From Georgenia muralis (GTDB lineage Bacteria; Actinomycetota; Actinomycetes; Actinomycetales; Actinomycetaceae): 64,000 nucleotides of DNA. The notes beneath the pieces were generated by a model, which was given only the letters and a program-made list of their open reading frames with translations, did not search any database and was not told the origin of the DNA. The stretch spans positions 2,232,001-2,296,000 of the forward strand of contig NZ_RKRA01000001.1 in the NCBI RefSeq assembly GCF_003814705.1, in the 5' to 3' direction. The translations under genes were made by a program, and so were the position numbers. Shown here one piece after another: positions 11,911-25,566 of this stretch (position 1 is its first letter; each line of letters begins with the position of its first letter).

Positions 11911-12546
11911 ATGCCTACCCCCTCCAAGGGTCCCCGTCTGGGTGGCAGCGCGGCGCACGAGCGGCTCATGCTGGCCAACCTGGCCACCGCGCTGTTCGAG
12001 CACAAGAAGATCACGACCACGGCGCACCGGGCCAAGCGTCTGCAGCCCGTGGCGGAGAAGCTCATCACGCTGGCCAAGCGCGGTGACCTCCACGCCCGCC
12101 GCAAGGTCATGACCACCGTGCGCCGCAAGGACATCGTGGCCGAGCTCTTCGAGACTACCGCCCCGAAGTTCGCCGAGCGCAACGGCGGCTACACCCGCAT
12201 CACGCAGGTGGCGCCCCGCAAGGGCGACAACGCCCCCATGGCCGTGATCGAGCTCGTCCTCGAGCCCGTGAGCCCCAAGCAGGCCACGGTCCGCGAGGCC
12301 GAGAAGGCCACCGCCCGCGCGGCCGCCGCCCCGGCTCCCGAGACCGCCGAGGTCGAGGAGACCACCGCGGCCGCCGTCGAGGCCGAGGCACCCGGCGAGC
12401 AGGGCTCCGCCACCGAGGGCGTCGAGGGCTCGACCACCGTCGAGGCCGAGCAGGCCGGCGCCGAGACCGCGGCCGCCCAGGCCACGGACGAGGCCACCGA
12501 CGCCCAGGCCGGCGCGGCCGAGGGCTCGGCCGACCCGCGCGCCTGA
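11911..12546 (+). CDS. rplQ: 50S ribosomal protein L17 with acidic C-terminal extension
   Basis: Large-subunit protein near the exit tunnel. Residues 1 to about 118 are the conserved L17 core ([20 protein letters not shown] through the VIELV strand). A further 90 or so residues are alanine-, glutamate- and threonine-rich and probably disordered, as in other actinobacterial L17 proteins. At 211 residues it is longer than the classical form. It is the last alpha-operon gene and is followed by a hairpin. Confidence 0.96.
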
Positions 12547-12564
12547 CGCACGACGCACCATCGA

Positions 12565-12598
12565 CGAAGGTCCGGTCCCCTCGGGGGCCGGGCCTTCG
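12565..12598 (+). terminator. Terminator of the alpha operon
   Basis: A 16-bp stem pairs 12565-12580 with 12583-12598, with only two G-U pairs, beginning 18 bases after the rplQ stop. No T-run follows. It also marks the left border of the selenium island. Confidence 0.7.
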
Positions 12599-12617
12599 TG
12601 CGTGGCAGGCTGGGACG

Positions 12618-13343
12618 ATGACGACCGTCCTCCTCGTCCACGGCATCCGCACGTCCGCGACGATGTGGCGGCGTCAGGTGGGCGCCCTCGAGGCGGCCGG
12701 GGTGCAGGCGCTGGCCCCCGACCTGCCCGGACACGGCACGCGCCGGGAGGAGGAGTTCACCGTCGCCGGCGCGATGGCGACCCTCACCGCCGCGGCGCAG
12801 GTCCCCGGCCCGCTCGTGGTGGCGGGCCTGTCCCTCGGGGGCTACCTCGCGATCCACTGGGCGGCGACGGCGGAGCGACCCCCGGACGGGGTCGTCGCGG
12901 CATCGTGCAGCACCGTGCCGCGCGGGCCGGGCCTCACGGGGTACCGGGCCCTGGCCCGTCTCGTGGCCCGGCTGCCGGACCGCGGGGCGGGCCTCGGCGA
13001 CGCGATGGCCCGACGGTTCCTGCCGCCGGAGGCCGTGACGGACGTCGGCGCGGGCGGGATCGCCCTGGAGGTCATGGACGCCGCCCTGGCCGGGGTCGCC
13101 GGGCTGGACCCGCTCGCCGAGCTCGCCGCGATCACCGCACCGGTGTGGATCGTCAACGGACGCCTCGACCACTTCCGGCTCCACGAGCGGCGCTACCTGC
13201 GCGCGTGCCGCGACGGCCGGCTCGTGCACGTCCCCGGTGCCACCCACCTGGTCGCCCTCACCGACCCCGTGCCGTTCACCCGGGTGCTCCTCGAGGCCGC
13301 GGCCGTCGCCGACGCCCGGGCGGGCAGCGAGGCGACCCGCTAG
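12618..13343 (+). CDS. Alpha/beta-fold hydrolase
   Basis: A predicted soluble esterase- or lactonase-like enzyme of 241 residues with unknown substrate. It shows the oxyanion-side LLVHG (residues 5-9), the nucleophile elbow GLSLGG with Ser72, an aspartate in NGRLDHF and a histidine in GATHL, so the catalytic triad is complete. The ATG at 12618 lies 20 bases after the terminator. Its TAG stop overlaps the stop of the convergent ROK gene on the other strand (shared CTAG). Nothing ties it functionally to the selenium genes except position. Confidence 0.75.
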   Translation: MTTVLLVHGIRTSATMWRRQVGALEAAGVQALAPDLPGHGTRREEEFTVAGAMATLTAAAQVPGPLVVAGLSLGGYLAIHWAATAERPPDGVVAASCSTVPRGPGLTGYRALARLVARLPDRGAGLGDAMARRFLPPEAVTDVGAGGIALEVMDAALAGVAGLDPLAELAAITAPVWIVNGRLDHFRLHERRYLRACRDGRLVHVPGATHLVALTDPVPFTRVLLEAAAVADARAGSEATR

Positions 13344-14131
13344 CCCTCGAGGGGGCGGGGGGCGCCGGCACGGGGGAGCTGGAGCTCCCACGCGCGCACC
13401 CCGCCGACGATCCCGGCGCTGTTGGGCACGACGACGACGTCGTCGCCGAGCCGGCCCAGCACGGCGGCGGAGATGCGCCGGGAGTTGCCCCCGCCGACGT
13501 AGAGCCGGTCCCACAGGTACATCGGGCGGAGCGCCTCGATGACGTTGCGGACCCGCCGCGACCACATCGCGTCGCCGAGCCGCAGGCGCTCGTGCTCGCC
13601 GATGTAGTCGTCGTAGGTCAGGCCCCACTTCACCGGGCCCTGGCTGAGCTCGACGTGGGGGGCCAGCGCGCCCCCGTCGAAGACGGCGTTCCCGAGCCCG
13701 GTGCCCAGCGTGAGGATCATCTCCAGACCGGCGCCGGCCACGACCCCCGCCCCGTGGACCTCGGCGTCGTTGAGGACGAGCGTCGGCAGCCCGAGTGCCT
13801 CCTCCACGGCCGAGCGCATGTCGAACCCGGACCAGTGGAGGACGAGCTCGGGCAGCACCCGTGTGCGCGGCCCCGCCTTGGTGACGTAGTGCGGCGTCGC
13901 CACCACGACGCCGTGGCGCAGCATCCCGGGCATCCCCACGGTCACCCTGTCGGCGGCCGGCAGCTGCTCGGCGAGGGAGGAGATGACCGAGACCAGACGG
14001 GAGGGCGGCAACGGGTACGGCGTGCTCGCCCGGACGGGCTGGGCGTGCATGGTCCCCGCGGCGTCCAGGACGGAGGCCTTGATGCCGCCGCCGCCGCAGT
14101 CCACCGCCAGGGTGGTCAGAGAGGGCTCCAC
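13340..14131 (-). CDS. ROK-family protein, polyphosphate-glucokinase-like
   Basis: A 263-residue sugar-kinase-fold protein resembling polyphosphate glucokinases. It has the N-terminal phosphate loop VDCGGGGIKASVLD, the probable catalytic aspartate in VLNDAEVHG, and the adenosine-side glycine motif TLGTGLGNAVFDGG. Where polyphosphate glucokinases have an E-L-G-H segment, this one reads VELSQG, so the substrate may differ. The GTG start lies inside the selB end (overlap 16 bases), so it is probably translated by coupling to selB. It is the last gene of the leftward selC-selA-selB unit; a selenium-related role is only an inference from linkage. Confidence 0.7.
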   Translation of the reverse strand: MEPSLTTLAVDCGGGGIKASVLDAAGTMHAQPVRASTPYPLPPSRLVSVISSLAEQLPAADRVTVGMPGMLRHGVVVATPHYVTKAGPRTRVLPELVLHWSGFDMRSAVEEALGLPTLVLNDAEVHGAGVVAGAGLEMILTLGTGLGNAVFDGGALAPHVELSQGPVKWGLTYDDYIGEHERLRLGDAMWSRRVRNVIEALRPMYLWDRLYVGGGNSRRISAAVLGRLGDDVVVVPNSAGIVGGVRAWELQLPRAGAPRPLEG

Positions 14132-15885
14132 GAGGTGACCGTACCGGAGCGGACCTCGCGCCGGTCGTCGGGGAGCCGCCGGGTGATGCCGAGCCGGTCC
14201 AGGTGCTCGAGCAGGGGGAGTGCGACGCGGCGGGTCGTGCCCAGCGCCTCCCGCGCCTGCGCCGCGGTGAACGGCTGGGGCAGGCTTGCCAGCCGCCCCG
14301 CGGCGGTGGCCGCCGCGTCGGGGAGCAGGACGAGGCCCGGCGCGGGCCGCAGGAGGAGGCCGGCGCGGGCAGCCGCGGCGAGGGCCCGGTCGTCCAGGCC
14401 GAGCTCCCTCAGCCGGTCGGCGGTGGGCGCCGCGAACGGCTCGACCCGCAGGTCCTCCCGGACCCGGCCGACCGCCTCCGCGACCGCGGCGGGCAGCCCC
14501 GCGCCGAGGGTGACCCGGCCGGCGGCGAGGACGAGCGGCGGCCCGACCACGGCGCGGGCCACCTCGGGCGAGGGCAGCCCGAGCCGCTCCGCGAGGGCGG
14601 GCAGCGCCATCCCGGGGTCGAGCGGGTGGGCCCGGTCGTGCTCGGCGACCACGGACCTGGCCGCCGAGCCCGCCGCGGCCGCCCGCTCGGCGGACATCAG
14701 CCACCCGTCCGCCGGGACGCCCGCCTCGCCGGGAACCCCGATGCGGCGGAGGAGCTCACGCTCCACCAGCCCGCGGCGTCGGACCTCGGCCGTGGCGTCG
14801 GGGCGCCCGGTCGCCGCGGCGAGGGTCTCGGCCCGCCGGCCGGCGTCGCCGCGCCGCGCGAGGGCGGGCGGGGCCGGGTCGAGGACCACGACGCCCCACA
14901 GCTCGCGGCTGCCGGGGTCGCGCAGGACGGCCCGGTCGCCGACCCGCAGCGGCAGGGCGCGGTCGAGGGTGAGCCGGGCGAGGCCCGCGCCGAGGGGGCG
15001 GTGGTGGACGGCGAGGTCCGCCGCCCCCACGTGCAGGACGGGACGCTCGGGCGGGCGCTCGCGAGTGCCGGCGGCGGCCGTGAGACGGACGTCGACGACC
15101 GTGGTGTGGTGGAACGCGCCGGGCGTGAGGAGCACCCCGCCGCGGCCCGGGACCGGACCCCCGGCGAGGTTGAGCGCCACGCGGGCGGTGCCGGGGACGG
15201 CCTCGACGGCGCGGCCCAGCGACTGCAGCGCACGTACGCGCAGGCTCACGTCCGCACCGGTGGTGAGGGTCTGCCCGACCCGGACCGTCCCGGCCGGCAG
15301 GGTCCCGGTGACGACGGTGCCCGCGCCCGCGACCGTGAAGCGACGGTCGACCCACAGCCGGACGTCGGCGTCGGCGTCGGGCACGGGCAGGTCTGCGAGC
15401 ACCGCGGCGAGCGCGGCCCGCAGCACATCCAGACCGGCACCGGTGCGCGAGCTCACCGCCACGGCGGGCGCGCCGGCGAGGCCGGTGCGCGCGAGGGCCG
15501 TCAGGGCGCGTTGCCGCGCCGGGGCCGGGTCGGCCAGGTCCGCGCGGGTGACCGCCACGACGCCGTGGCGCACGCCCAGGGCGTCGAGGGCGGCGAGGTG
15601 CTCGGCCGCCTGGGGCATCCACGGGTCGTCTGCGGCCACCACGAGGAGCACCGCCGGGACGGGGCCGACCCCGGCGAGCGTCGTCGTGAGGAACCGCTCG
15701 TGGCCGGGCACGTCGACGAACGCGACCTCCCCGGCCCCCGGGAGGGTGGTCCACGCGTGCCCGAGCTCGATGGTCAGGCCGCGGCGCCGCTCCTCCGCGA
15801 GCCGGTCCGGGTCGGTCCCGGTCAGCGCCCGGACGAGCGCGGACTTGCCATGGTCGACGTGCCCGGCGGTGGCGACGACGTGCAT
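14116..15885 (-). CDS. selB: Selenocysteine-specific elongation factor SelB
   Basis: GTPase that carries Sec-tRNA to the ribosome and binds the SECIS hairpin. The 589-residue protein starts MHVVATAGHVDHGKS with the G1 motif at residues 8-15, then DVPGHE (G3) and VTRADL at the G4 position. EF-Tu-like beta domains follow, and the C-terminal 250 or so residues should form the winged helices that bind mRNA. The ATG shares its A with the selA stop (TGATG). The partner SECIS lies in fdhA of the same island. Confidence 0.93.
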   Translation of the reverse strand: MHVVATAGHVDHGKSALVRALTGTDPDRLAEERRRGLTIELGHAWTTLPGAGEVAFVDVPGHERFLTTTLAGVGPVPAVLLVVAADDPWMPQAAEHLAALDALGVRHGVVAVTRADLADPAPARQRALTALARTGLAGAPAVAVSSRTGAGLDVLRAALAAVLADLPVPDADADVRLWVDRRFTVAGAGTVVTGTLPAGTVRVGQTLTTGADVSLRVRALQSLGRAVEAVPGTARVALNLAGGPVPGRGGVLLTPGAFHHTTVVDVRLTAAAGTRERPPERPVLHVGAADLAVHHRPLGAGLARLTLDRALPLRVGDRAVLRDPGSRELWGVVVLDPAPPALARRGDAGRRAETLAAATGRPDATAEVRRRGLVERELLRRIGVPGEAGVPADGWLMSAERAAAAGSAARSVVAEHDRAHPLDPGMALPALAERLGLPSPEVARAVVGPPLVLAAGRVTLGAGLPAAVAEAVGRVREDLRVEPFAAPTADRLRELGLDDRALAAAARAGLLLRPAPGLVLLPDAAATAAGRLASLPQPFTAAQAREALGTTRRVALPLLEHLDRLGITRRLPDDRREVRSGTVTSWSPL

Positions 15886-17180
15886 CAGCGGCCCCCCGCC
15901 GCCGCCCGCACCGCCTCGACGAGGGCGGGGTCGTCCTCCGGCGGGACGGCGAGGAGGTCCAGGAGCAGGGCGCCGCGCTCGACGTGCCCGACGACGGGGC
16001 GCACCCCCGCGCGCAGCGGCCCGGCGAGCGCCACGGGCAGCGTGACGGCCGCGCTGGCCAGCTCCACCCCGGGCGCGCCCCCGCCGCCGACCGCCGCGAC
16101 CGAGCGGGCCGCCGTGGCCGCGACGACGCCGGCGAGGGCCGCGGCCACCGACCGGGCCCGGGCGAGCAGCGCGTCCGCGTCGGCGGCCAGGGCGAGCGCC
16201 ACCGGGGGCGGCGGGCCGGTCAGGGTCGCCTCCAGCGCGGCGAGGGTGAGCTTGTCGGCCCGCACCGCGCGGGCGAAGGGGTGCCGGCGCAGGCGGTGGA
16301 CGAGGTCGGCGCGGCCCAGGAGCAGGCCGCACTGCGGGCCGCCGAGCAGCTTGTCCCCCGACGCCGTGACCACGGCGGCGCCCGCGCGCAGGGCCGTGGC
16401 GGCGTCCGGCTCGGCCGGCAGCCGGGGGTGGGGGGACAGGAGCCCCGAACCGATGTCGGCGACCACCGGGACGGGCAGGCCCGCGAGGTCGGCCACGGCG
16501 ACCGAGGAGGTGAAGCCCGACACGACGAAGTTGGACGGGTGGACCTTCAGGACGAAGGCGGTCCGGTCGTCGACGGCGTCGGCGTAGTCCTGCGTGCGCA
16601 CCCGGTTGGTGGTGCCCACCTCGCGCAGCTGCGCCCCGACGGACTCGAGCAGCTCGGGGATGCGGAAGCCGTCGCCGATCTCGACCATCTCCCCCCGGGC
16701 CACGACCACGGTGCGCCCGGCCGCCAGGGCGAGCGCGACCAGGGCCAGGGCCGCCGCGCCGTTGTTGACGACGTGCACCCCGCCGGCGTCGGGCACCGCG
16801 GCGGCGAGCGCGGTCAGGGCGCCGCGGCCGCGCGGTCCGCGCCGGCCCGTGGCCAGGTCCAGCTCGACGTCGGTGGGCCCGGCCGCGACGGCCAGCGCCC
16901 GGACCGCGGCGGCGGACAGCGGTGCACGGCCGAGGTTGGTGTGGACCAGGACCCCGGTCGCGTTGATGACCGGCCGCAGCGACGTGGCCGCCACGGGCAG
17001 GGCGTCGACGACGGCGTCGACGACGTCACCGGGGGCCAGCTCGCCGCGCCGGCACCGCTCCAGGGTGTCGGTCACCACCTCCTTGACCGTGGTGCGGCCG
17101 AGCTCCGCCCCGGCGCGGGCCAGGCGCGGGTCGGCGAGCACGGCGTCGGTGCGCGGCACGGCGCGCCGTGGGTCACTCAC
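15885..17180 (-). CDS. selA: L-seryl-tRNA(Sec) selenium transferase SelA
   Basis: PLP enzyme that converts Ser-tRNA(Sec) to Sec-tRNA(Sec) using selenophosphate. The product is 431 residues. The N-terminal segment RPVINATGVLVHTNLGRAPLS and the PLP lysine in TASGDKLLGGPQCG are clear. I chose the GTG at 17180 because GGAGG lies 5 bases before it. An ATG at 17192 is also in frame but would start 6-8 bases from the 3' end of selC and remove that spacing. The gene directly follows selC and overlaps selB by one base. Confidence 0.92.
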   Translation of the reverse strand: MSDPRRAVPRTDAVLADPRLARAGAELGRTTVKEVVTDTLERCRRGELAPGDVVDAVVDALPVAATSLRPVINATGVLVHTNLGRAPLSAAAVRALAVAAGPTDVELDLATGRRGPRGRGALTALAAAVPDAGGVHVVNNGAAALALVALALAAGRTVVVARGEMVEIGDGFRIPELLESVGAQLREVGTTNRVRTQDYADAVDDRTAFVLKVHPSNFVVSGFTSSVAVADLAGLPVPVVADIGSGLLSPHPRLPAEPDAATALRAGAAVVTASGDKLLGGPQCGLLLGRADLVHRLRRHPFARAVRADKLTLAALEATLTGPPPPVALALAADADALLARARSVAAALAGVVAATAARSVAAVGGGGAPGVELASAAVTLPVALAGPLRAGVRPVVGHVERGALLLDLLAVPPEDDPALVEAVRAAAGGR

Positions 17181-17199
17181 GCGCACCTCCATCGTCCGG

Positions 17200-17291
17200 C
17201 GGAGGCGGACGGGAATCGAACCCGCCTGACCGGGATCCCCGGTCACTACGGTTTTGAGGACCGCGCCCGTCACCAGACGAGGTACGCCTCC
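17200..17291 (-). tRNA. selC: tRNA-Sec (anticodon TCA)
   Basis: Decodes UGA as selenocysteine. Reading leftward from 17291 there is an acceptor strand GGAGGCGT, a 6-bp D stem with TGGT loop, an anticodon loop CCTCAAA with anticodon TCA, a long variable arm with a 7-8-bp stem (TGACCGG against CCGGTCA) and a T arm with loop TTCGATT. The long acceptor and variable arms are diagnostic for tRNA-Sec. Seven acceptor pairs are clean; the eighth would be T opposite C. The base before the anticodon is C, not the usual T. The 3' end reads G-CC-G, so CCA is not encoded. Confidence 0.95.
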
Positions 17292-17298
17292 GCGGCAC

Positions 17299-17304
17299 AC
17301 CCTA
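17299..17304 (-). promoter_or_regulatory. Candidate -10 of the selC-selA-selB unit
   Basis: On the minus strand TAGGGT ends 7 nt before base 17291, the first nucleotide of mature tRNA-Sec. If used, transcription would begin at or next to the tRNA 5' end. No good -35 is visible. Confidence 0.4.
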
Positions 17305-17350
17305 GTCCGAGAGTGCTGTGCCATCGCCAGCCGTGGCGGCGGCGGTGCCG

Positions 17351-17379
17351 TGGACACCGGGCCCGGGTGTGCCTAGAGT
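17351..17379 (+). promoter_or_regulatory. Promoter of selD
   Basis: TGGACA (17351-17356), a 17-nt spacer and TAGAGT (17374-17379) make a good sigma-70-type promoter. Only 7 nt separate the -10 from the selD GTG and there is no ribosome binding site, so the transcript is probably leaderless. Confidence 0.65.
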
Positions 17380-17386
17380 CCGACGG

Positions 17387-18409
17387 GTGAGCGCCGGAGC
17401 CCCGCTGCGTCTGACGCAGCACGCCGCCGGGGGCGGGTGCGCGTGCAAGGTGCCCCCGGGCGAGCTCGAGGCACTCCTCGGCGGACTCGTCAACGGTCAG
17501 GGCCGCCGCGGCGCCGCCGGCCCGGACGGCGCACTGCCCGAGCTCATGGTGGGACCGGAGCACGGTGACGACGCCGCCGTGGTCCGCATCGAGGGCGGAC
17601 GGGCGATCATCGCCACGGCCGACTTCTTCACCCCCGTCGTCGACGACCCGTACGACTGGGGCCGCATCGCCGCGACGAACGCGCTGTCCGACGTCTACGC
17701 CATGGGCGGGACACCCCTGGTGGCGGTGAACCTGCTCTCCTGGCCACGCGGCAGGATCCCCCTCGAGGTCGCCGCCGAGGTCCTGCGGGGCGGCTCCGAC
17801 GTGTGCGCCGCCGCCGGCACCTACCTCGGCGGGGGGCACAGCATCGACGACCCCGAGCCGAAGTACGGCCAGGCCGTCACCGGTCTGGCCGACGCCGACA
17901 AGCTCCTGCGCAACGACGCCGGGCTCGCCGGCACGCCGCTGACCCTCACCAAGCCCCTCGGCCTGGGAGTGCTCAACAACCGCCACAAGGCCACCGGGGA
18001 GCGGTTCGACGAGGCGGTGTCGGTCATGACCACCCTCAACCGTGACGCCGCCCACGCCGCGCTGGCCGGGGGCGCCCGGTGCGCGACCGACGTCACCGGG
18101 TTCGGCCTGCTCGGCCACCTCCTCAAGCTCGTGCGCGCCAGCGGGGTCTCCGCCGTCGTCGACGCCTCGGCCGTGCCCTACCTCGACGGCGCGCGGCGGT
18201 CCCTGGCCGAGGGGTTCGTCCCGGGCGGCTCGCGCCGCAACCTCACCTGGGTGCGTCCGTACCTGACGTCGGACGTCGACGACGACGAGCTGCTCCTCCT
18301 CGCCGACGCGCAGACCTCCGGGGGGCTCCTCGTGGCCGGGGAGGTCCCGGGCCACCCGGTCGTCGGTGAGCTCGTGGCGGCGGGCGAGCACGCCATCACG
18401 GTGCGCTGA
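17387..18409 (+). CDS. selD: Selenide, water dikinase (selenophosphate synthetase)
   Basis: Makes selenophosphate, the selenium donor for SelA, from selenide and ATP. The 340-residue protein has the active-site segment GGGCACKVPP near the N-terminus; the catalytic position is cysteine rather than selenocysteine. Also visible are ATADFFTPVVDDPYDWG and the glycine-rich GTYLGGGHSIDDPEPKYG. The GTG at 17387 was chosen because it gives the standard N-terminus and sits right after a promoter. It is divergent from selC-selA-selB and is followed 55 bases later by fdhA. Confidence 0.93.
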   Translation: MSAGAPLRLTQHAAGGGCACKVPPGELEALLGGLVNGQGRRGAAGPDGALPELMVGPEHGDDAAVVRIEGGRAIIATADFFTPVVDDPYDWGRIAATNALSDVYAMGGTPLVAVNLLSWPRGRIPLEVAAEVLRGGSDVCAAAGTYLGGGHSIDDPEPKYGQAVTGLADADKLLRNDAGLAGTPLTLTKPLGLGVLNNRHKATGERFDEAVSVMTTLNRDAAHAALAGGARCATDVTGFGLLGHLLKLVRASGVSAVVDASAVPYLDGARRSLAEGFVPGGSRRNLTWVRPYLTSDVDDDELLLLADAQTSGGLLVAGEVPGHPVVGELVAAGEHAITVR

Positions 18410-18464
18410 CGGGGCGCGCGACGCCGAGGGTTTCGCTACGGTGAGGACGGGAGGAGGCGGGCCG

Positions 18465-21400
18465 ATGGAGACCAGCAAGGTGTTCCTGTCCTGGCCCGTG
18501 CTGCGCCAGCTGACCGGCACCGACCCGCTCGGCCGCGGCCCGGCCGTCCGGTCCGCCCGGACCGAGCGCCTCACCGCCCGCACCGAGACCGCCGACCGCG
18601 TGGCCCGCAGCGTGTGCCCCTACTGCGCGGTGGGGTGCGGGCAGCGGGTCTACGTCAAGGACGACAAGGTCGTGCAGATCGAGGGCGACCCCGACAGCCC
18701 CATCTCCCGCGGCCGGCTGTGCCCCAAGGGCTCGGCCAGCAAGAACCTCGTCACCTCGCCGCTGCGGCTGACCAAGGTCCGCTACCGCCGGCCCTACGGC
18801 ACCCAGTGGGAGGACCTCGACCTCGACGTCGCGATGGGCATGATCGCCGACCGGGTGGTCGACGCGCGACGCCGGACGTGGCAGGACCGCGACGAGGAGG
18901 GCCGGTACGTCCACCGGACCCTGGGGATCGCGAGCCTGGGCGGGGCCACCCTGGACAACGAGGAGAACTACCTCATCAAGAAGCTGTTCACGGCGCTCGG
19001 CGCCCTGCAGATCGAGAACCAGGCCCGTATTTGACACTCCGCGACGGTCCCCGGTCTGGGGACCAGCTTCGGTCGCGGCGGCGCCACCGGCTTCCAGCAG
19101 GACCTGGTCAACGCGGACTGCATCATCATCCAGGGCTCGAACATGGCCGAGGCCCACCCGGTGGGCTTCCAGTGGGTGGTCGAGGCGAAGGCCCGCGGCG
19201 CTCGCGTCATCCACGTCGACCCCCGGTTCACGCGCACGAGCGCGCTCGCCGACACGTACGTGCCCATCCGGGTGGGCTCGGACATCGTCTTCCTCGGCGC
19301 GATCGTCAACCACGTGCTGAGCAACGGGCTGGACTTCCGCGAGTACGTCCTGGCCTACACCAACGCCGCGACGATCGTCTCCGAGGACTACCTCGACACC
19401 GAGGACCTCGACGGGCTGTTCTCCGGGTTCGACCCGGACACCCGCACGTACGACTCCGCGAGCTGGCAGTACGCCGGGAGCGAGGGGGCCGGCGACGGGG
19501 AGGGCGAGGAGGCCCGTGACCGGGCCACCGCCCGGGGCATGGAGCACGAGACCCACGGGATGCAGGTCCCCGCCGAGGTCCAGCGCGACGAGACCCTCCA
19601 GCACCCGCGGACCGTCTACCAGATCCTCCGGCGGCACTTCGCCCGGTACACCCCCGAGGTCGTCGAGGAGGTCTGCGGCATCTCCCGCGAGCAGTTCCTC
19701 GACGTCGCGAACGCGTGGGCGGCGAGCTCGGGCCGCGAGCGCACCACCGCGCTGGTCTACAGCGTCGGGTGGACCCAGCACAGCGTGGGCGCGCAGTACA
19801 TCCGCACCGGGGCCATCCTCCAGCTGCTCCTGGGGAACATGGGCCGGCCCGGCGGCGGCATCCTCGCGCTGCGCGGGCACGCCTCCATCCAGGGCTCGAC
19901 CGACATCCCGACCTTGTTCAACCTCCTCCCGGGCTACCTGCCGATGCCGCGCGCGCAGGACCACCCCGACCTCCAGTCCTGGGTGGGCGAGATGCGGCCC
20001 GCCACCGCCAAGGGCTTCTGGAGCATGTCCCGCGCCTACGCGATCAGTCTCCTCAAGGCGTACTGGGGTCCGGCCGCGACCGCGGAGAACGACTTCGCCT
20101 ACGACTACCTGCCACGCCTGACGGGCGACCACGGGACCTACCGCACGGTCCTGGACATGATCGACGGCAAGGTCAAGGGCTACTTCCTGCTCGGGCAGAA
20201 CCCCGCCGTCGGCTCCGCGCACGGCAAGGCCCAGCGCCTGGGCATGGCCAACCTCGACTGGCTCGTGGTGCGCGACCTCTACGAGATCGAGAGCGCGACG
20301 TTCTGGCGCGACTCCCCGGAGATCGAGACCGGGGAGATCGTCCCCGAGCAGTGCCGCACCGAGGTCTTCCTCATGCCCGCCGCCTCGCACGTGGAGAAGG
20401 AGGGCACCTTCACCCAGACCCAGCGCCTGCTGCAGTGGCGGGAGAAGGCGGTCGACCCGGAGGGGGACCGGCGCTCCGAGCTGTGGTTCTTCTACCACCT
20501 CGGCCGGCTCGTCCGCGAGCGGCTGGCAGGCTCCACCGAGGACCGCGACCGACCCGTGCTCGACCTCGCCTGGGACTACCCCACCCACGGCGACGAGCCC
20601 TCCGCCGAGGCGGTGCTCCGGGAGATCAACGGGTACGAGGTCGCCACCGGACGGCCCCTGTCGACGTTCACCGAGCTGCGCGACGACGGCACGACCGTGG
20701 GCGGGTGCTGGATCTACACCGGCGTCCTCGCCGACGGCGTCAACCAGGCCGCCCGCCGCCGGCCCGGCTCGGAGCAGTCCTGGGTCGCGCCGGAGTGGGG
20801 CTGGGCCTGGCCGGCGAACCGCCGGATCCTGTACAACCGCGCCTCCGCCGACCCGCAGGGCCGGCCGTGGAGCGAGCGCAAGGCGTACGTGTGGTGGGAC
20901 GAGGACGCCGGGCGGTGGACCGGGCACGACGTGCCCGACTTCGAGGCGGCCAAGCCGCCGGGCTACCGCCCGCCGCCGGGCGCCACCGGCGTCGAGGCCA
21001 TCGCCGGCGACGACGCGTTCATCATGCAGGGCGACGGCAAGGGCGCGCTCTTCGTCCCGTCCGGTCTCGTCGACGGCCCGCTGCCCACGCACTACGAGCC
21101 GGTGGAGTCCGTCGTCCGCAACGCGCTGTACGGCCAGCAGTCCAACCCCACACGGGTGCAGTACCGGCGCCCGGACAACCCCATGCACCCGCTGGACGAC
21201 GCCGTCTTCCCGTACGTGTTCACCACGAGCCGGCTCACCGAGCACCACACCGCCGGCGGGATGAGCCGGTTCCTGGAGTACCTCTCCGAGCTCCAGCCGG
21301 AGATGTTCGTCGAGGTCTCGCCGCAGCTGGCCGCCGAGCGCGGCCTCGCGCACCTGGGGTGGTGCCACGTGGTCACCGCCCGCGCCGCCGTGGAGGGCAG

Positions 21401-21767
21401 GGTGCTCGTCACCGAGCGGCTGCGCCCGCTGCGCATCGAGGGCAGGACCGTGCACCAGGTCTGGCTGCCCTACCACTGGGGCAGCGGGGGGCTGGTGACG
21501 GGGGACGCGGCGAACGACCTCTTCGGCATCACCCTGGACCCCAACGTGCTCATCCAGGAGACCAAGGCCGGCACGTGCGACGTCCGGGCGGGCCGGCGTC
21601 CCCGCGGGCGCGCCCTCCTCCAGCTCGTGGACGACTACCGGCGACGCGCCGGTACCGACGTCGACCGGCCGATCGTCACCGCGTCCCCGTCCGCGGTGAC
21701 GCGGTCGCACGGGGTGGGCGGGACCGGCGAGCCGGACGACACCGACGGAGGCGACGATGGCCGGTAG
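18465..21767 (+). CDS. fdhA: Formate dehydrogenase alpha subunit, selenoprotein (Sec190 encoded by TGA at 19032-19034)
   Basis: Molybdopterin enzyme that oxidises formate to CO2. Both halves, before and after the TGA, are in one frame and give 1100 residues with selenocysteine at 190. The surroundings, NQARI-U-HSATVPGLGTSFGRGGAT, match the Sec site of FdnG-type enzymes. The N-terminal [4Fe-4S] ligands are CPYCAVGC and, later, GRLCPKG. Segments NMAEAHPVGFQW and GNMGRPGGGI are typical of the FDH-N/O family. I see no twin-arginine signal in the first 50 residues, unlike exported FDH-N. AGGAGG precedes the ATG. It overlaps fdhB by 11 bases. Confidence 0.94.
19032..19064 (+). promoter_or_regulatory. 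Bacterial SECIS element with Sec UGA codon in fdhA
   Basis: The TGA (19032-19034) is followed by exactly 11 nt and then a perfect 7-bp stem, 19046-19052 with 19058-19064, capped by loop GGTCT. The E. coli fdhF/fdnG SECIS has the same 11-nt spacing and an apical loop containing GGUCU, the SelB contact. This supports readthrough as selenocysteine. Confidence 0.93.
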
Positions 21768-22731
21768 GCACTCCTTGTTCGGGCCGATCGACCCGGCGGC
21801 CGACGCCGGCTGGGTGGACCCGCCGCCGCGCAAGGGCTTCTTCACCGACACGAGCGTGTGCATCGGCTGCAAGGCCTGCGAGGTCGCCTGCAAGGAGTGG
21901 AACCTCCTGCCCGACGACGGCTTCGAGCTGCTCGGCTCCTCCTACGACAACACCGGCGCGCTCGGGTCCACCACCTGGCGGCACGTCGCGTTCGTCGAGC
22001 AGGGCGGACGGGCGAGCGTGGACCTGGGGATGCCCGGCCTGGGGCCGCCCGCTCCCGCACCCGCCGCTCCCGCACCGGGTGCGGGAGCGGTGGCGGGCGC
22101 ACCACCGGGGAGCGAGCCGCCGGTGAGCGCTGCGCCGGCGGAGCGGCCGGACTTCCGCTGGCTCATGTCCTCCGACGTGTGCAAGCACTGCACCCACGCG
22201 GCGTGCCTGGACGTGTGCCCGACCGGCTCGCTCTTCCGCACCGAGTTCGGCACCGTCGTCGTCCAGCCCGACGTGTGCAACGGCTGCGGCTACTGCGTGC
22301 CGGCCTGCCCGTACGGCGTCATCGAACGGCGTCCCGGACCGGCAGGGGACCCCCTGGCGGGCATCGCCCAGAAGTGCACGCTCTGCTACGACCGGCTGCG
22401 CTCGGGCGCCGAGCCGGCGTGCGCCAAGGCCTGCCCGACCGACTCCATCCAGTTCGGCGACGTGGAGGAGCTGCGCGAGCGCGCCGCGGCCCGCCTCGAC
22501 GTGCTGCGGGCCGCCGGGCAGGACGAGGCCCGGCTCTACGGCGCAGAGCCCGACGACGGCGTCGGCGGGACGGGAGCCTTCTTCCTCCTCCTGGACGAGC
22601 CCGAGGTGTACGGCCTGCCCCCGGACCCGGTGGTGACCACCAAGGACCTGCCACACATGTTCAACCGCGCCTCCGCCGCGGCCGTCGCCCTCCTCGCCGG
22701 GGCGGCGCTGTCCTTCCTGGGGCGCCGGTGA
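21757..22731 (+). CDS. fdhB: Formate dehydrogenase iron-sulfur subunit (FdhB/FdnH-like)
   Basis: Electron-transfer subunit carrying four [4Fe-4S] clusters from the molybdopterin subunit to the membrane subunit. In 324 residues the four cysteine groups are CIGCKACEVAC, CKHCTHAACLDVC, CNGCGYCVPAC and CTLCYDRL...CAKAC. Between the first and second lies an Ala/Pro/Gly-rich linker (about residues 98-125) whose DNA holds a 27-base hairpin. The last 20 or so residues are hydrophobic (AAAVALLAGAALSFLG), probably a membrane anchor as in FdnH. It overlaps fdhA by 11 bases and the next gene by 4. Confidence 0.92.
   Translation: MAGRHSLFGPIDPAADAGWVDPPPRKGFFTDTSVCIGCKACEVACKEWNLLPDDGFELLGSSYDNTGALGSTTWRHVAFVEQGGRASVDLGMPGLGPPAPAPAAPAPGAGAVAGAPPGSEPPVSAAPAERPDFRWLMSSDVCKHCTHAACLDVCPTGSLFRTEFGTVVVQPDVCNGCGYCVPACPYGVIERRPGPAGDPLAGIAQKCTLCYDRLRSGAEPACAKACPTDSIQFGDVEELRERAAARLDVLRAAGQDEARLYGAEPDDGVGGTGAFFLLLDEPEVYGLPPDPVVTTKDLPHMFNRASAAAVALLAGAALSFLGRR
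22064..22090 (+). repeat. 27-base inverted repeat inside the fdhB linker
   Basis: Thirteen bases at 22064-22076 are the exact reverse complement of 22078-22090, with one base between. It encodes part of the Ala/Pro/Gly linker between the first and second iron-sulfur groups. Confidence 0.7.
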
Positions 22732-23696
22732 GCCCGCGCGGCGGCGGTGAGCCCGCCGTGGTCCCCGACGCCGAGTTCACGTCCTACTACGGCCGGCCGG
22801 TGGTCAAGCCGGCGCCGTGGGCGGCGGACATCCCCGCCTACATGTTCGCCGGTGGTCTCGCGGCCGGGTCCTCCCTCCTCGCCGCCGGGGCCGACCTCAC
22901 AAGCCGGCCCGCGCTGCGCCGCAGCGGCCGGGTCACCGCCCTGGCCGCCCTCGGCTTCAGCGCGGCGGCCCTCGTGCACGACCTCGGCCGCCCGTCCCGG
23001 TTCCTCAACATGATGCGCACCGTCAAGCTCACGTCGCCGATGTCTGTGGGCACGTGGATCCTCGCCCTGTACGGCCCGCCCGCCGGCCTGGCCGCCGTCG
23101 CCGAGCTCGCCGGCGTGCCCGGCGTGCCCCGCCGGCTCGGCCGTGTCCTGGGAGCGCTCGGCCGCCCGGCCGGGCTCGCCGCCGGGCTGCTGGCCCCGCC
23201 GGTCGCCGCGTACACGGCGGTTCTGCTCTCGGACACCGCCACGCCGTCCTGGCACGAGGCCTACCGTGAGCTCCCGTTCGTCTTCGTCTCCTCCGCCGCC
23301 GCCGCCGCGGGCGGGGCCGCGCTGCTCGCCGTCCCGGCGGCCCAGGCCGGGCCCGCGCGGCGGCTGGCGGTCGGCGGAGCCCTCGCCGAGCTGCTCGCGG
23401 AGGCACGGATGGAGCGTTCCATGGGGATGACCGCCGAGCCGCTGCACCAGGGCGGGGCAGGTCGCCTCATGCGGGCCGCCAAGCTGCTCACGGCGGCCGG
23501 CGCCGCCCTGACCCTCCTCGCCGGCCGCCGCCGGCCGGTCGCCGCGCTCGCGGGTGCGGCTCTCCTGGCCGGGTCGGCGTGCACCCGTTTCGGCGTCGTC
23601 GAGGCGGGCCTGGCCTCGGCCCGCGACCCGCGCTACACCGTCGTCCCGCAGCGGCGGCGCCTGGCTCAGGCCGCGACCCGGTCGCCGCGGGCGTAG
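22728..23696 (+). CDS. NrfD/PsrC-type membrane subunit of formate dehydrogenase
   Basis: Polytopic membrane protein of 322 residues, expected to anchor FdhAB and pass electrons to the menaquinone pool. I count about seven to eight hydrophobic segments, starting with [20 protein letters not shown], and a conserved-looking [13 protein letters not shown]. It belongs to the NrfD family rather than the haem-b FdnI family. The GTG overlaps the fdhB stop (GTGA). Its 3' end overlaps the convergent fdhD by 31 bases. Confidence 0.85.
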
Positions 23697-24502
23697 ACGT
23701 TGGCGCTGTCCCCGCGGCTGAAGGCGACGAGGGTCAGCCCGGCCTCCACCGCGAGCTCGACGGCCAGCGTGGACGGCGCGCTCACCGCGGCCAGGAGCGG
23801 CACCCCCGCCATGCACGCCTTCTGCACCAGCTCGAACGAGGCGCGGCCGGAGACCTGCAGCAGGTGCCCGGTGAGCGGCAGCCGACCCTCCCGCAGGGCC
23901 CAGCCGAGGACCTTGTCCACGGCGTTGTGGCGGCCCACGTCCTCGCGCAGGCAGACCAGCCGGGCGACGCCGTCGGACCCGAGGACGAAGAGGCCCGCCG
24001 CGTGGACGCCACCGGTACGGGCGAAGACCCGCTGCCCCTCGCGCAGCCGGTCGGGCAGGGCGAGCAGCTCGGCGAGGCCGACCCGCAGGCCGTCGGCGGC
24101 GACGTCGAACCGCGACGTGCGCGAGACCGCCTCGATCGACGACGTGCCGCAGATCCCGCACGAGCTCGAGGTGTACACGTGCCGCTCGAGGGAGGGGTCG
24201 GGCGCCGTGACCCCGGCGGCCAGGGTCACGTCGACGACGTTGTAGCTCGCCCGGCCGTCGGCGTCCACGCCGGGACCGTAGGCGATCGAGGCGAGGTCCT
24301 CCCGGCGCCCGACCACCCCCTCGGAGACGAGGAAGCCCGCGACCAGGTCGAAGTCCGCACCGGGCGTGCGCATCGTCACCGCGTACGGCGAGCCGCCCAC
24401 CCGGATCTCCAGCGGCTCCTCGCCGGCCACCGTGTCCGCGCGGCGCCGGCGCGAGCCGTCCGCGCCCAGCCGCTCGACGGGGTGCAGCCTCGTCACCCGC
24501 AC
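23666..24502 (-). CDS. fdhD: Formate dehydrogenase sulfurtransferase FdhD
   Basis: Transfers sulfur to the molybdenum cofactor of formate dehydrogenase, which is essential for activity. The 278-residue protein has the twin-cysteine loop [10 protein letters not shown] and the segment [18 protein letters not shown], both diagnostic. It starts with GTG at 24502, preceded by GGAGGGAGC. It runs opposite to fdhA-fdhB-nrfD and overlaps the last of these by 31 bases. Confidence 0.93.
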
Positions 24503-24555
24503 GCTGCTCCCTCCGACGGTCCTGCGTGGAGGCTAGCGGGCCGGGCGCGGGTCGG

Positions 24556-24561
24556 TAACCT
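24556..24561 (+). promoter_or_regulatory. -10 element of leaderless truA
   Basis: TAACCT ends 6 nt before the truA GTG, with no ribosome binding site between. No clear -35 is visible. Confidence 0.5.
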
Positions 24562-24567
24562 CGGGCC

Positions 24568-25566
24568 GTGGATGGAGAGCCGGGCCCGGAGCCCGCCAGG
24601 GCCGACGTCGGGGAGCGGGGCGACGGCGAGCGAGCCGCCCGGGAGGGGGGCACCGTCCGGGTGCGTCTCGACCTCGCCTACGACGGCACGGCCTTCGCGG
24701 GCTGGGCCACCCAGCCGGGCCTGCGGACCGTCCAGGGCGTGCTCGAGGAGGCCCTCACCACCGTCCTGCGTCTGGACCGCCCGGCGCGGCTCACCGTTGC
24801 CGGCCGCACCGACGCCGGGGTGCACGCCCGGGGGCAGGTGGCCCACGTCGACGTCCCGCCGGCGGCCTGGCAGGCACTGCCCGGCCGGGGTGACCGCCCG
24901 CCGGGCGAGGCCCTCGTGGCGCGCCTCGCGGGCGTCCTCGGGCGCGGCGGGACGCCGCGCGGCGCCGCCGACGTCGTCGTGCGCCGCGCGAGCCTCGCCC
25001 CCGCCGGGTTCGACGCCCGCTTCGGTGCGCTCTGGCGCCGCTACGCCTACCGCATCGCGGACGGCGTGGCGGGCCGGGACCCCCTGCGGCGGGCCGAGGT
25101 GCTCTGGCACCCCCGCCCGCTCGACGCAGCGGCGATGGACGAGGCCGCCGGCCGGCTGGTCGGCGAGCACGACTTCGCGGCGTACTGCCGGCCCCGGGAG
25201 GGGGCGACGACCATCCGCACCCTGCAGGCGTTCGGGTTCCACCGGGTCGGCGCCGGGGGCGCCGAGGGCCGGGTGCGCGAGGGGGGCGGGCCGGACGAGG
25301 ACCTCGTCGTCGCCACCGTGCGCGCCGACGCGTTCTGCCACTCGATGGTGCGCGCCCTCGTGGGGGCGTGCCTGGCGGTGGGGGAGGGACGGCGCGACCC
25401 GGGCTGGCCGGCCGAGGTCCTCGCGGCCGGTCGCCGCGACCCCGGCGTCACCGTCGCCGCCGCGCACGGCCTCACGCTGGAGGAGGTCGCCTACCCGCCC
25501 GACGCCGGGCTGGCGGCCCGGGTGGCGGAGGCGCGGAACGTGCGCCGCCTGATGCTGCCCCGCTGA
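24568..25566 (+). CDS. truA: tRNA pseudouridine synthase A
   Basis: Makes pseudouridine at positions 38-40 of tRNA anticodon stems. The 332-residue protein has the catalytic aspartate Asp82 in [13 protein letters not shown], and [18 protein letters not shown] and [11 protein letters not shown] further on. The first 28 or so residues are charged and variable, and an internal GTG near residue 30 is an alternative start. I chose 24568 because it lies 6 nt from a -10 element. In many actinobacteria truA follows rplQ directly; here the selenium island lies between. Confidence 0.93.

Follow-up and report, generated by a model that had tools for sequence, protein, structure and literature searches.

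How the ribosome treats a TGA lying in frame within fdhA is the question raised by this stretch of Georgenia muralis DNA (64,000 nucleotides, here called the window, to which all coordinates refer). Under translation table 11 the gene is broken in two, a short ORF that starts at 18366 or 18465 and ends at 19034, and a longer one (19143–21767, 874 aa), the split that the initial annotation had predicted for a conventional reading. The in-frame TGA that it reported is likewise present: fdhA (18465–21767, plus strand), with GGAGGAGG at 18450–18457 ahead of its ATG at 18465, runs intact downstream of the TGA to the stop ending at 21767, and the TGA (19032–19034, plus strand) is codon 190 of 1100. 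This codon almost certainly stands for selenocysteine (Sec) in the catalytic subunit of a formate dehydrogenase that contains molybdenum or tungsten and is presumably attached to the membrane, with insertion through SelA, SelD, SelB and the hairpin at 19046–19064; we read it so because homology, machinery, covariation and natural Cys variants all agree. For annotation, two fragments become one selenoprotein with the complete machinery adjoining.

The product, the formate dehydrogenase alpha subunit, is a full-length member of family NF041513 (1951.7 bits, cut-off 1400, residues 6–1061), formate_DH_Act, in whose name we read "Act" as actinobacterial and its members as Sec proteins. It also matches TIGR01553 (927.1 bits, cut-off 814.2), and its Pfam domains, Molybdopterin, Molybdop_Fe4S4 and Molydop_binding, are those of molybdopterin oxidoreductases. 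Among proteins of solved structure, its best match is E. coli formate dehydrogenase N (PDB 1kqf). The FdnG-type sequence that had been noticed around the TGA is borne out by alignment with E. coli FdnG (38% identity over most of the protein), in which residue 190 stands opposite Sec196, itself encoded by a TGA (codon 196); FdhA thus carries the TGA at the catalytic position that characterizes a selenocysteine formate dehydrogenase. The ALRGH stretch of FdnG, which we take to contain the catalytic arginine of the E. coli enzyme, is retained in the alignment. Set against E. coli formate dehydrogenase N, FdhA has no twin-arginine motif visible by eye in residues 1–45, from which we infer an enzyme that would face the cytoplasm. 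Its nearest match among the named contigs, within the matches listed, is from Georgenia (86% for the best).

Downstream of the TGA, an 11-nt spacer (19035–19045, plus strand), the same in codon register as in E. coli fdnG, fdoG and fdhF, leads to a SECIS hairpin (19046–19064, plus strand), whose arms GGTCCCC (19046–19052) and GGGGACC (19058–19064) form seven base pairs around the 5-nt loop GGTCT (19053–19057). The spacing, stem and loop described in the initial annotation are therefore all found within 19035–19064. Its further description of the element as textbook E. coli SelB geometry holds in part. The 11-nt distance and the GGUCU-type loop are those of E. coli (AGTCT in fdnG, GGTCT in fdhF and here), but the E. 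coli SECIS stem has a bulged U, and here U 19048 faces A 19062. In E. coli fdnG the U at the place of 19048 faces C in the codon register, which fits the bulge. In 112 related sequences the base facing this position is A in 76, G in 32 and U in 4, so the helix can be continuous; the invariance of the U itself says nothing about the RNA, since the same nucleotide serves as the middle base of a Val codon. The bacterial SECIS consensus given in passages of PMC13188914 (apical loop of 3–9 nt, G at loop position 1 or 2, 16–37 nt from UGA to loop) is matched by the 5-nt loop GGTCT and the 18 nt between TGA and loop.

Fold energy alone is weak evidence for a SECIS, because longer stretches are unremarkable against shuffles. 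The 19-mer hairpin by itself gives −13.6 kcal/mol (z = −2.61, 3 of 200 shuffles equally good), the 44 nt from the TGA give z = −0.99 (34 of 200), and a 71-nt stretch gives z = −1.59 (14 of 200). When folded freely in a 90-nt context, 77 family rows showed a mean stem probability of 0.46, with values below 0.5 in 43 of them and near 1 in the window. A strict geometry (TGA, 11 nt, at least six of seven pairs, loop RGTYT) occurs once on the two strands of the window, compared with 0.02 times per shuffled window (200 shuffles, none with all seven pairs). In the 1,636,464 bases of loci L036–L115, which had been collected for their FdhA, 67 of 68 matches lie at the FdhA site. A search of the genome, in which 150 of 8498 candidates were scored with a model of one SECIS type close to that of fdhA, found no second SECIS of this kind: the fdhA site scored 59.4 bits and the next candidate 15.5 bits over part of the model.

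Relatives of FdhA were taken from 99 relatives' genomes, 80 loci of 278 relatives on named contigs, 396 phylum genomes and 296 class genomes, as matches listed and stretches chosen by hand. The Sec site could be placed in 250 loci, or 231 after identical stretches were dropped; this count leaves out one locus with a gap, sites too near an end and matches weaker than 1e-20. Removing three E. coli genes and three distant Cys-type oxidoreductases gave 225 distinct rows, the window's own included. Among these loci, the site codon is TGA in 194, TAG in 13, TGC in 16 and TGT in 2, that is, Cys in 18. Three weak FdhA-like matches listed with TGA (G016, G079 and G298) were rejected, as they have Cys aligned at the Sec site and no stop (L299 was assigned by elimination). 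Two fdhA copies have in-frame stops elsewhere, a TAG 59 codons past the Sec/Cys site in L176 and a TGA 685 codons past it in L276; these copies are broken or misassembled.

Covariation in the hairpin was examined in 112 distinct 39-mers, that is, 130 distinct Sec rows minus 18 that score 1050 bits or less (distant or truncated). Stem cells are paired in 95.0% of cases, against a shuffled mean of 85.4 (0 of 500 shuffles as high), and only 33 to 60% are paired when the stem is slid by 1 to 3 columns. The pair of columns 18 and 30, which joins the third base of a Val codon to the third base of a Gly codon, both synonymous, is standard in 112 of 112 rows and unpaired in none, although its type varies (CG 59, GC 21, UA 19, GU 8, UG 5); the closing CG pair is replaced by GC in seven rows. 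Of five measures of covariation, three exceeded all 500 shuffles (cells paired, cells with both sides changed, and the score); the other two, pairs with both sides changed and further pair types, did not (155 and 219 of 500 shuffles as high). In a codon scan of 98 Sec-type genes, all 98 had GGT or AGT as the loop codon and all 98 had CCC as the Pro codon; these columns ranked second and fifth of 1033.

Six or seven of the seven stem pairs are present in 118 of the 130 distinct Sec rows. Ten have fewer than five, all of them among the 18 distant or truncated rows, so their hairpin may differ in shape or place. At the usual hairpin place, four or fewer of seven pairs were seen in the distant Sec-type FdhA of L216, L217, L219 to L221, L223, L225, L227, L228, L233 and L234; the SECIS of such genes (e.g., L216) may have another shape or distance. 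The Cys rows (n = 18) keep one to six of the seven pairs and the GGTCT loop in 3 of 18, and judged by these counts, they have lost the SECIS in part.

The window contains all four genes, selA, selB, selC and selD, by which the Sec-decoding trait of bacteria is recognized. On the minus strand lie tRNA-Sec (17201–17291, anticodon tca; RF01852 77.3 bits, gathering 47; ARAGORN 17198–17291), then selA, encoding L-seryl-tRNA(Sec) selenium transferase (15885–17195, start provisional; TIGR00474 389.8 bits, cut-off 267.9), and selB, encoding the selenocysteine-specific elongation factor (14116–15903; TIGR00475 254.8 bits, cut-off 242.25), which gives the one match in the genome to PF09107 (SelB-wing_3, 61.0 bits, cut-off 23.2). 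Divergent from these and directly upstream of fdhA is selD, for a Cys-form selenide, water dikinase (17318–18409, plus strand, start provisional; TIGR00476 370.4 bits, cut-off 125). Downstream of fdhA follow fdhB, the iron–sulfur beta subunit (21757–22731, plus strand; Fer4_11 over its cut-off, best model TIGR01582 FDH-beta with 155.9 bits, below the cut-off of 334.7), fdhC, an NrfD-type membrane subunit (22740–23696, plus strand, start provisional; PF03916 NrfD 53.0 bits, cut-off 25.8), and fdhD, the formate dehydrogenase accessory sulfurtransferase (23666–24502, minus strand; NF001943 340.1 bits, cut-off 269).

A comparable system is that of Actinomycetospora chiangmaiensis, for which passages of PMC7176365 report selenium-dependent formate removal, formate dehydrogenases predicted to hold Sec, and low protein levels of FDH, SelA, SelB and SelD. 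As here, its FDH1 cluster comprises alpha, beta and gamma subunits together with SelA and SelB. In the window, tRNA-Sec, selA and selB are transcribed divergently from selD-fdhABC, and the cluster includes selD and fdhD, whereas the table in PMC7176365 does not assign SelD and FdhD to FDH1.

The whole cluster (12546–24568) is flanked by rplQ (ribosomal protein L17; TIGR00059 over cut-off) and truA, whose best model, TIGR00071, scores 128.7 bits, under the cut-off of 142.85. These two genes are separated by 12.3 kb in the window, as in G006, and by 13 to 14 kb in four further genomes of the genus (G001, G003, G004 and G007); fdhA lies between them in all six genomes. In G008 the distance is 13.9 kb and fdhA is on a different contig. 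G048 has its fdhA at a distance of about 112 kb, G002 has split contigs, and in G005 the gap is 5.0 kb with no full-length match to fdhA. Its other places, or its absence, in some relatives suggest a Sec and formate dehydrogenase cluster that is moved or lost as one block.

Across the 99 genomes searched, the window's own included, FdhA with TGA occurs in 23 (G083, where it matched in two pieces, is counted among them) and with TGC in one (G045). At the Rfam cut-off, tRNA-Sec passes in 34 of 99 genomes, with weak matches in all, controls included. At a line of at least 62.7 bits, drawn after the gap to the next match (52.0 bits) had been seen, it is present in 23 of 23 TGA-type genomes and in 2 of the 76 others (G063 and G069). 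The SelB wing PF09107 matched 21 of these 23 genomes as well as G063 and G069; it had no match in the TGA-type genomes G073 and G090, nor in G045, with its Cys-type FdhA, where the tRNA matches were weak only. Genomes G063 and G069 have a strong tRNA-Sec (G063:C5:753682-753773 and G069:C204:44322-44413) and the SelB wing without a full-length match to FdhA; Sec may be used in other proteins there or be in the course of being lost, or the gene may be absent from the assembly.

Codon, hairpin, covariation, the full set of Sec genes and their co-occurrence are features read in the DNA; how they would work together is modeled on E. coli. On that model, SelA and SelD would make Sec-tRNA-Sec, and SelB would carry it, bind the hairpin (19046–19064) where the mRNA enters the ribosome, and place Sec at the UGA (19032–19034) in competition with RF2. 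Enzyme activity and placement at the membrane are expected on the same analogy.

The rows with TAG at the site bear on whether SelB would be needed at all. They come exclusively from Modestobacter, Klenkia and Geodermatophilus (L079, L082, L084, L093, L095 to L098, L100, L101, L104 to L106), with ATA before the TAG in 13 of 13. UAG-type selenocysteine of the Geodermatophilaceae was reportedly the subject of Mukai et al. 2016, which PMC5330540 cites. The fdhA of these rows is orthologous to that of the window, as is its hairpin, with TAG (13 rows) in place of TGA, and passages of PMC5330540 describe UAG-coded Sec in this family, which has a CUA tRNA-Sec. SelB-independent readthrough of the TGA by a near-cognate Trp or Cys tRNA is an alternative; UGA reading by such tRNAs is named in a passage of PMC5373646, but we regard it as very improbable at this site, given a tRNA-Sec in 23 of 23 TGA-type genomes, a SECIS that covaries, and one clade with TAG whose family is known from PMC5330540 for its CUA tRNA-Sec.

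If fdhA were decaying or miscalled, with the TGA a nonsense mutation or a sequencing error, its break under table 11 would be accounted for, yet this is scarcely credible when a stop stands at the site in 207 of 225 distinct family rows, the frame is intact to 21767 and compensatory change keeps the hairpin. Practically no weight can be given to termination at the TGA with separate translation of the downstream frame into a second subunit, for which start codons exist (e.g., ATG 19143), as the FeS domain would be parted from the remaining enzyme, the Cys-type homologues are single polypeptides, and neither the hairpin nor the Sec machinery would have a use.

With the TGA read as selenocysteine, Sec insertion at fdhA is of a known kind; the value beyond annotation lies in the codon directly before it. 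This Ile codon, ATT in the window (19029–19031, plus strand), occupies a position at which Sec-type FdhA of Actinomycetota is strongly biased in codon choice; its column ranked first in the scan of 98 Sec-type genes over 1033 columns: the codon is ATT in 62, ATA in 35 and ATC in 1, yet ATC makes up 95.7% of the 3898 Ile codons in these genes. Over all rows, A or U directly precedes the Sec codon in 197 of 207 Sec rows (ATA 99, ATT 89, GTT 9; exceptions ATC 8, GTC 1, ATG 1) versus 0 of 18 Cys rows (GTG 8, GTC 8, ATC 2). The codon usage of the individual genes would predict about 16 of 206, where 197 were observed. Residue and Sec are partly confounded, since the Sec rows mostly have Ile and the Cys rows Val; within Ile, A/U is found in 188 of 196 Sec and 0 of 2 Cys rows, and within Val, in 9 of 10 and 0 of 16. 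On a FastTree tree of these related rows, Sec and Cys interchange three times, with the base class shifting the same way in all three (sign p = 0.25, too few for a test). A/U and C/G interchange 11 times, and ATA and ATT at least 24 times among the Sec rows; the base therefore swaps between A and U often and seldom settles on C.

A 5' rule holding for Sec throughout Actinomycetota was rejected: in 60 SelD genes hand-picked among the matches listed, A/U precedes the site in 11 of the 40 with Sec and in 4 of the 20 with Cys. The 40 had been chosen for a TGA at the active site (L302 to L341); the SelD of the window has Cys. The rule is also absent from the 10 proteobacterial Sec rows examined, the three of E. 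coli included, which all have GTC where the window has ATT. Of 60 relatives listed from a plasmid collection (1106 records), 12 were fetched: eight have TGA (seven Proteobacteria, all with GTC before it, and Thermomicrobium with ATA) and four have Cys (GTC 3, CTG 1). Because it fails in SelD and in the proteobacterial rows, the rule is particular to actinomycete-type fdhA, or to Ile or Val before Sec.

We lean, by a small degree, toward a Sec signal in actinomycete fdhA that has a 5' part beyond the SECIS, in which the base before Sec must be A or U, affecting decoding with Ile or Val in the P site (by slowing decoding, weakening release or leaving the Sec codon unpaired), and which is missing in each of the three lineages with a Sec/Cys change on the tree. 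In the titles and passages of the literature searched, we recognized no description of such a rule. Being tied to Sec and not to Cys, it poses a testable question about what the ribosome needs 5' of a recoded stop.

Several causes were considered. Our guess is that a P-site codon with A/U as its last base slows decoding or weakens release. According to passages of PMC9841425, readthrough of the OPRL1 stop signal depends on which codon occupies the P site, Ile codons among them, and of these AUU gives the lowest level; for this reason a simple release argument is not favored. Pairing of the Sec codon was rejected as the cause: with C before it, its mean pairing in 77 rows rises from 0.28 to 0.42 (up in 45, down in 11), an effect too weak for a rule kept in 95%, and the stem is barely altered (mean change +0.03, with 18 rows up and 10 down). 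For codon rarity as the sole cause the result was mixed. In Ile rows with GC3 below 0.75, seven of eight use ATA, the gene's least used Ile codon (L223 does not), and in the Val row L229, the GTT before Sec accounts for 34% of the gene's Val codons.
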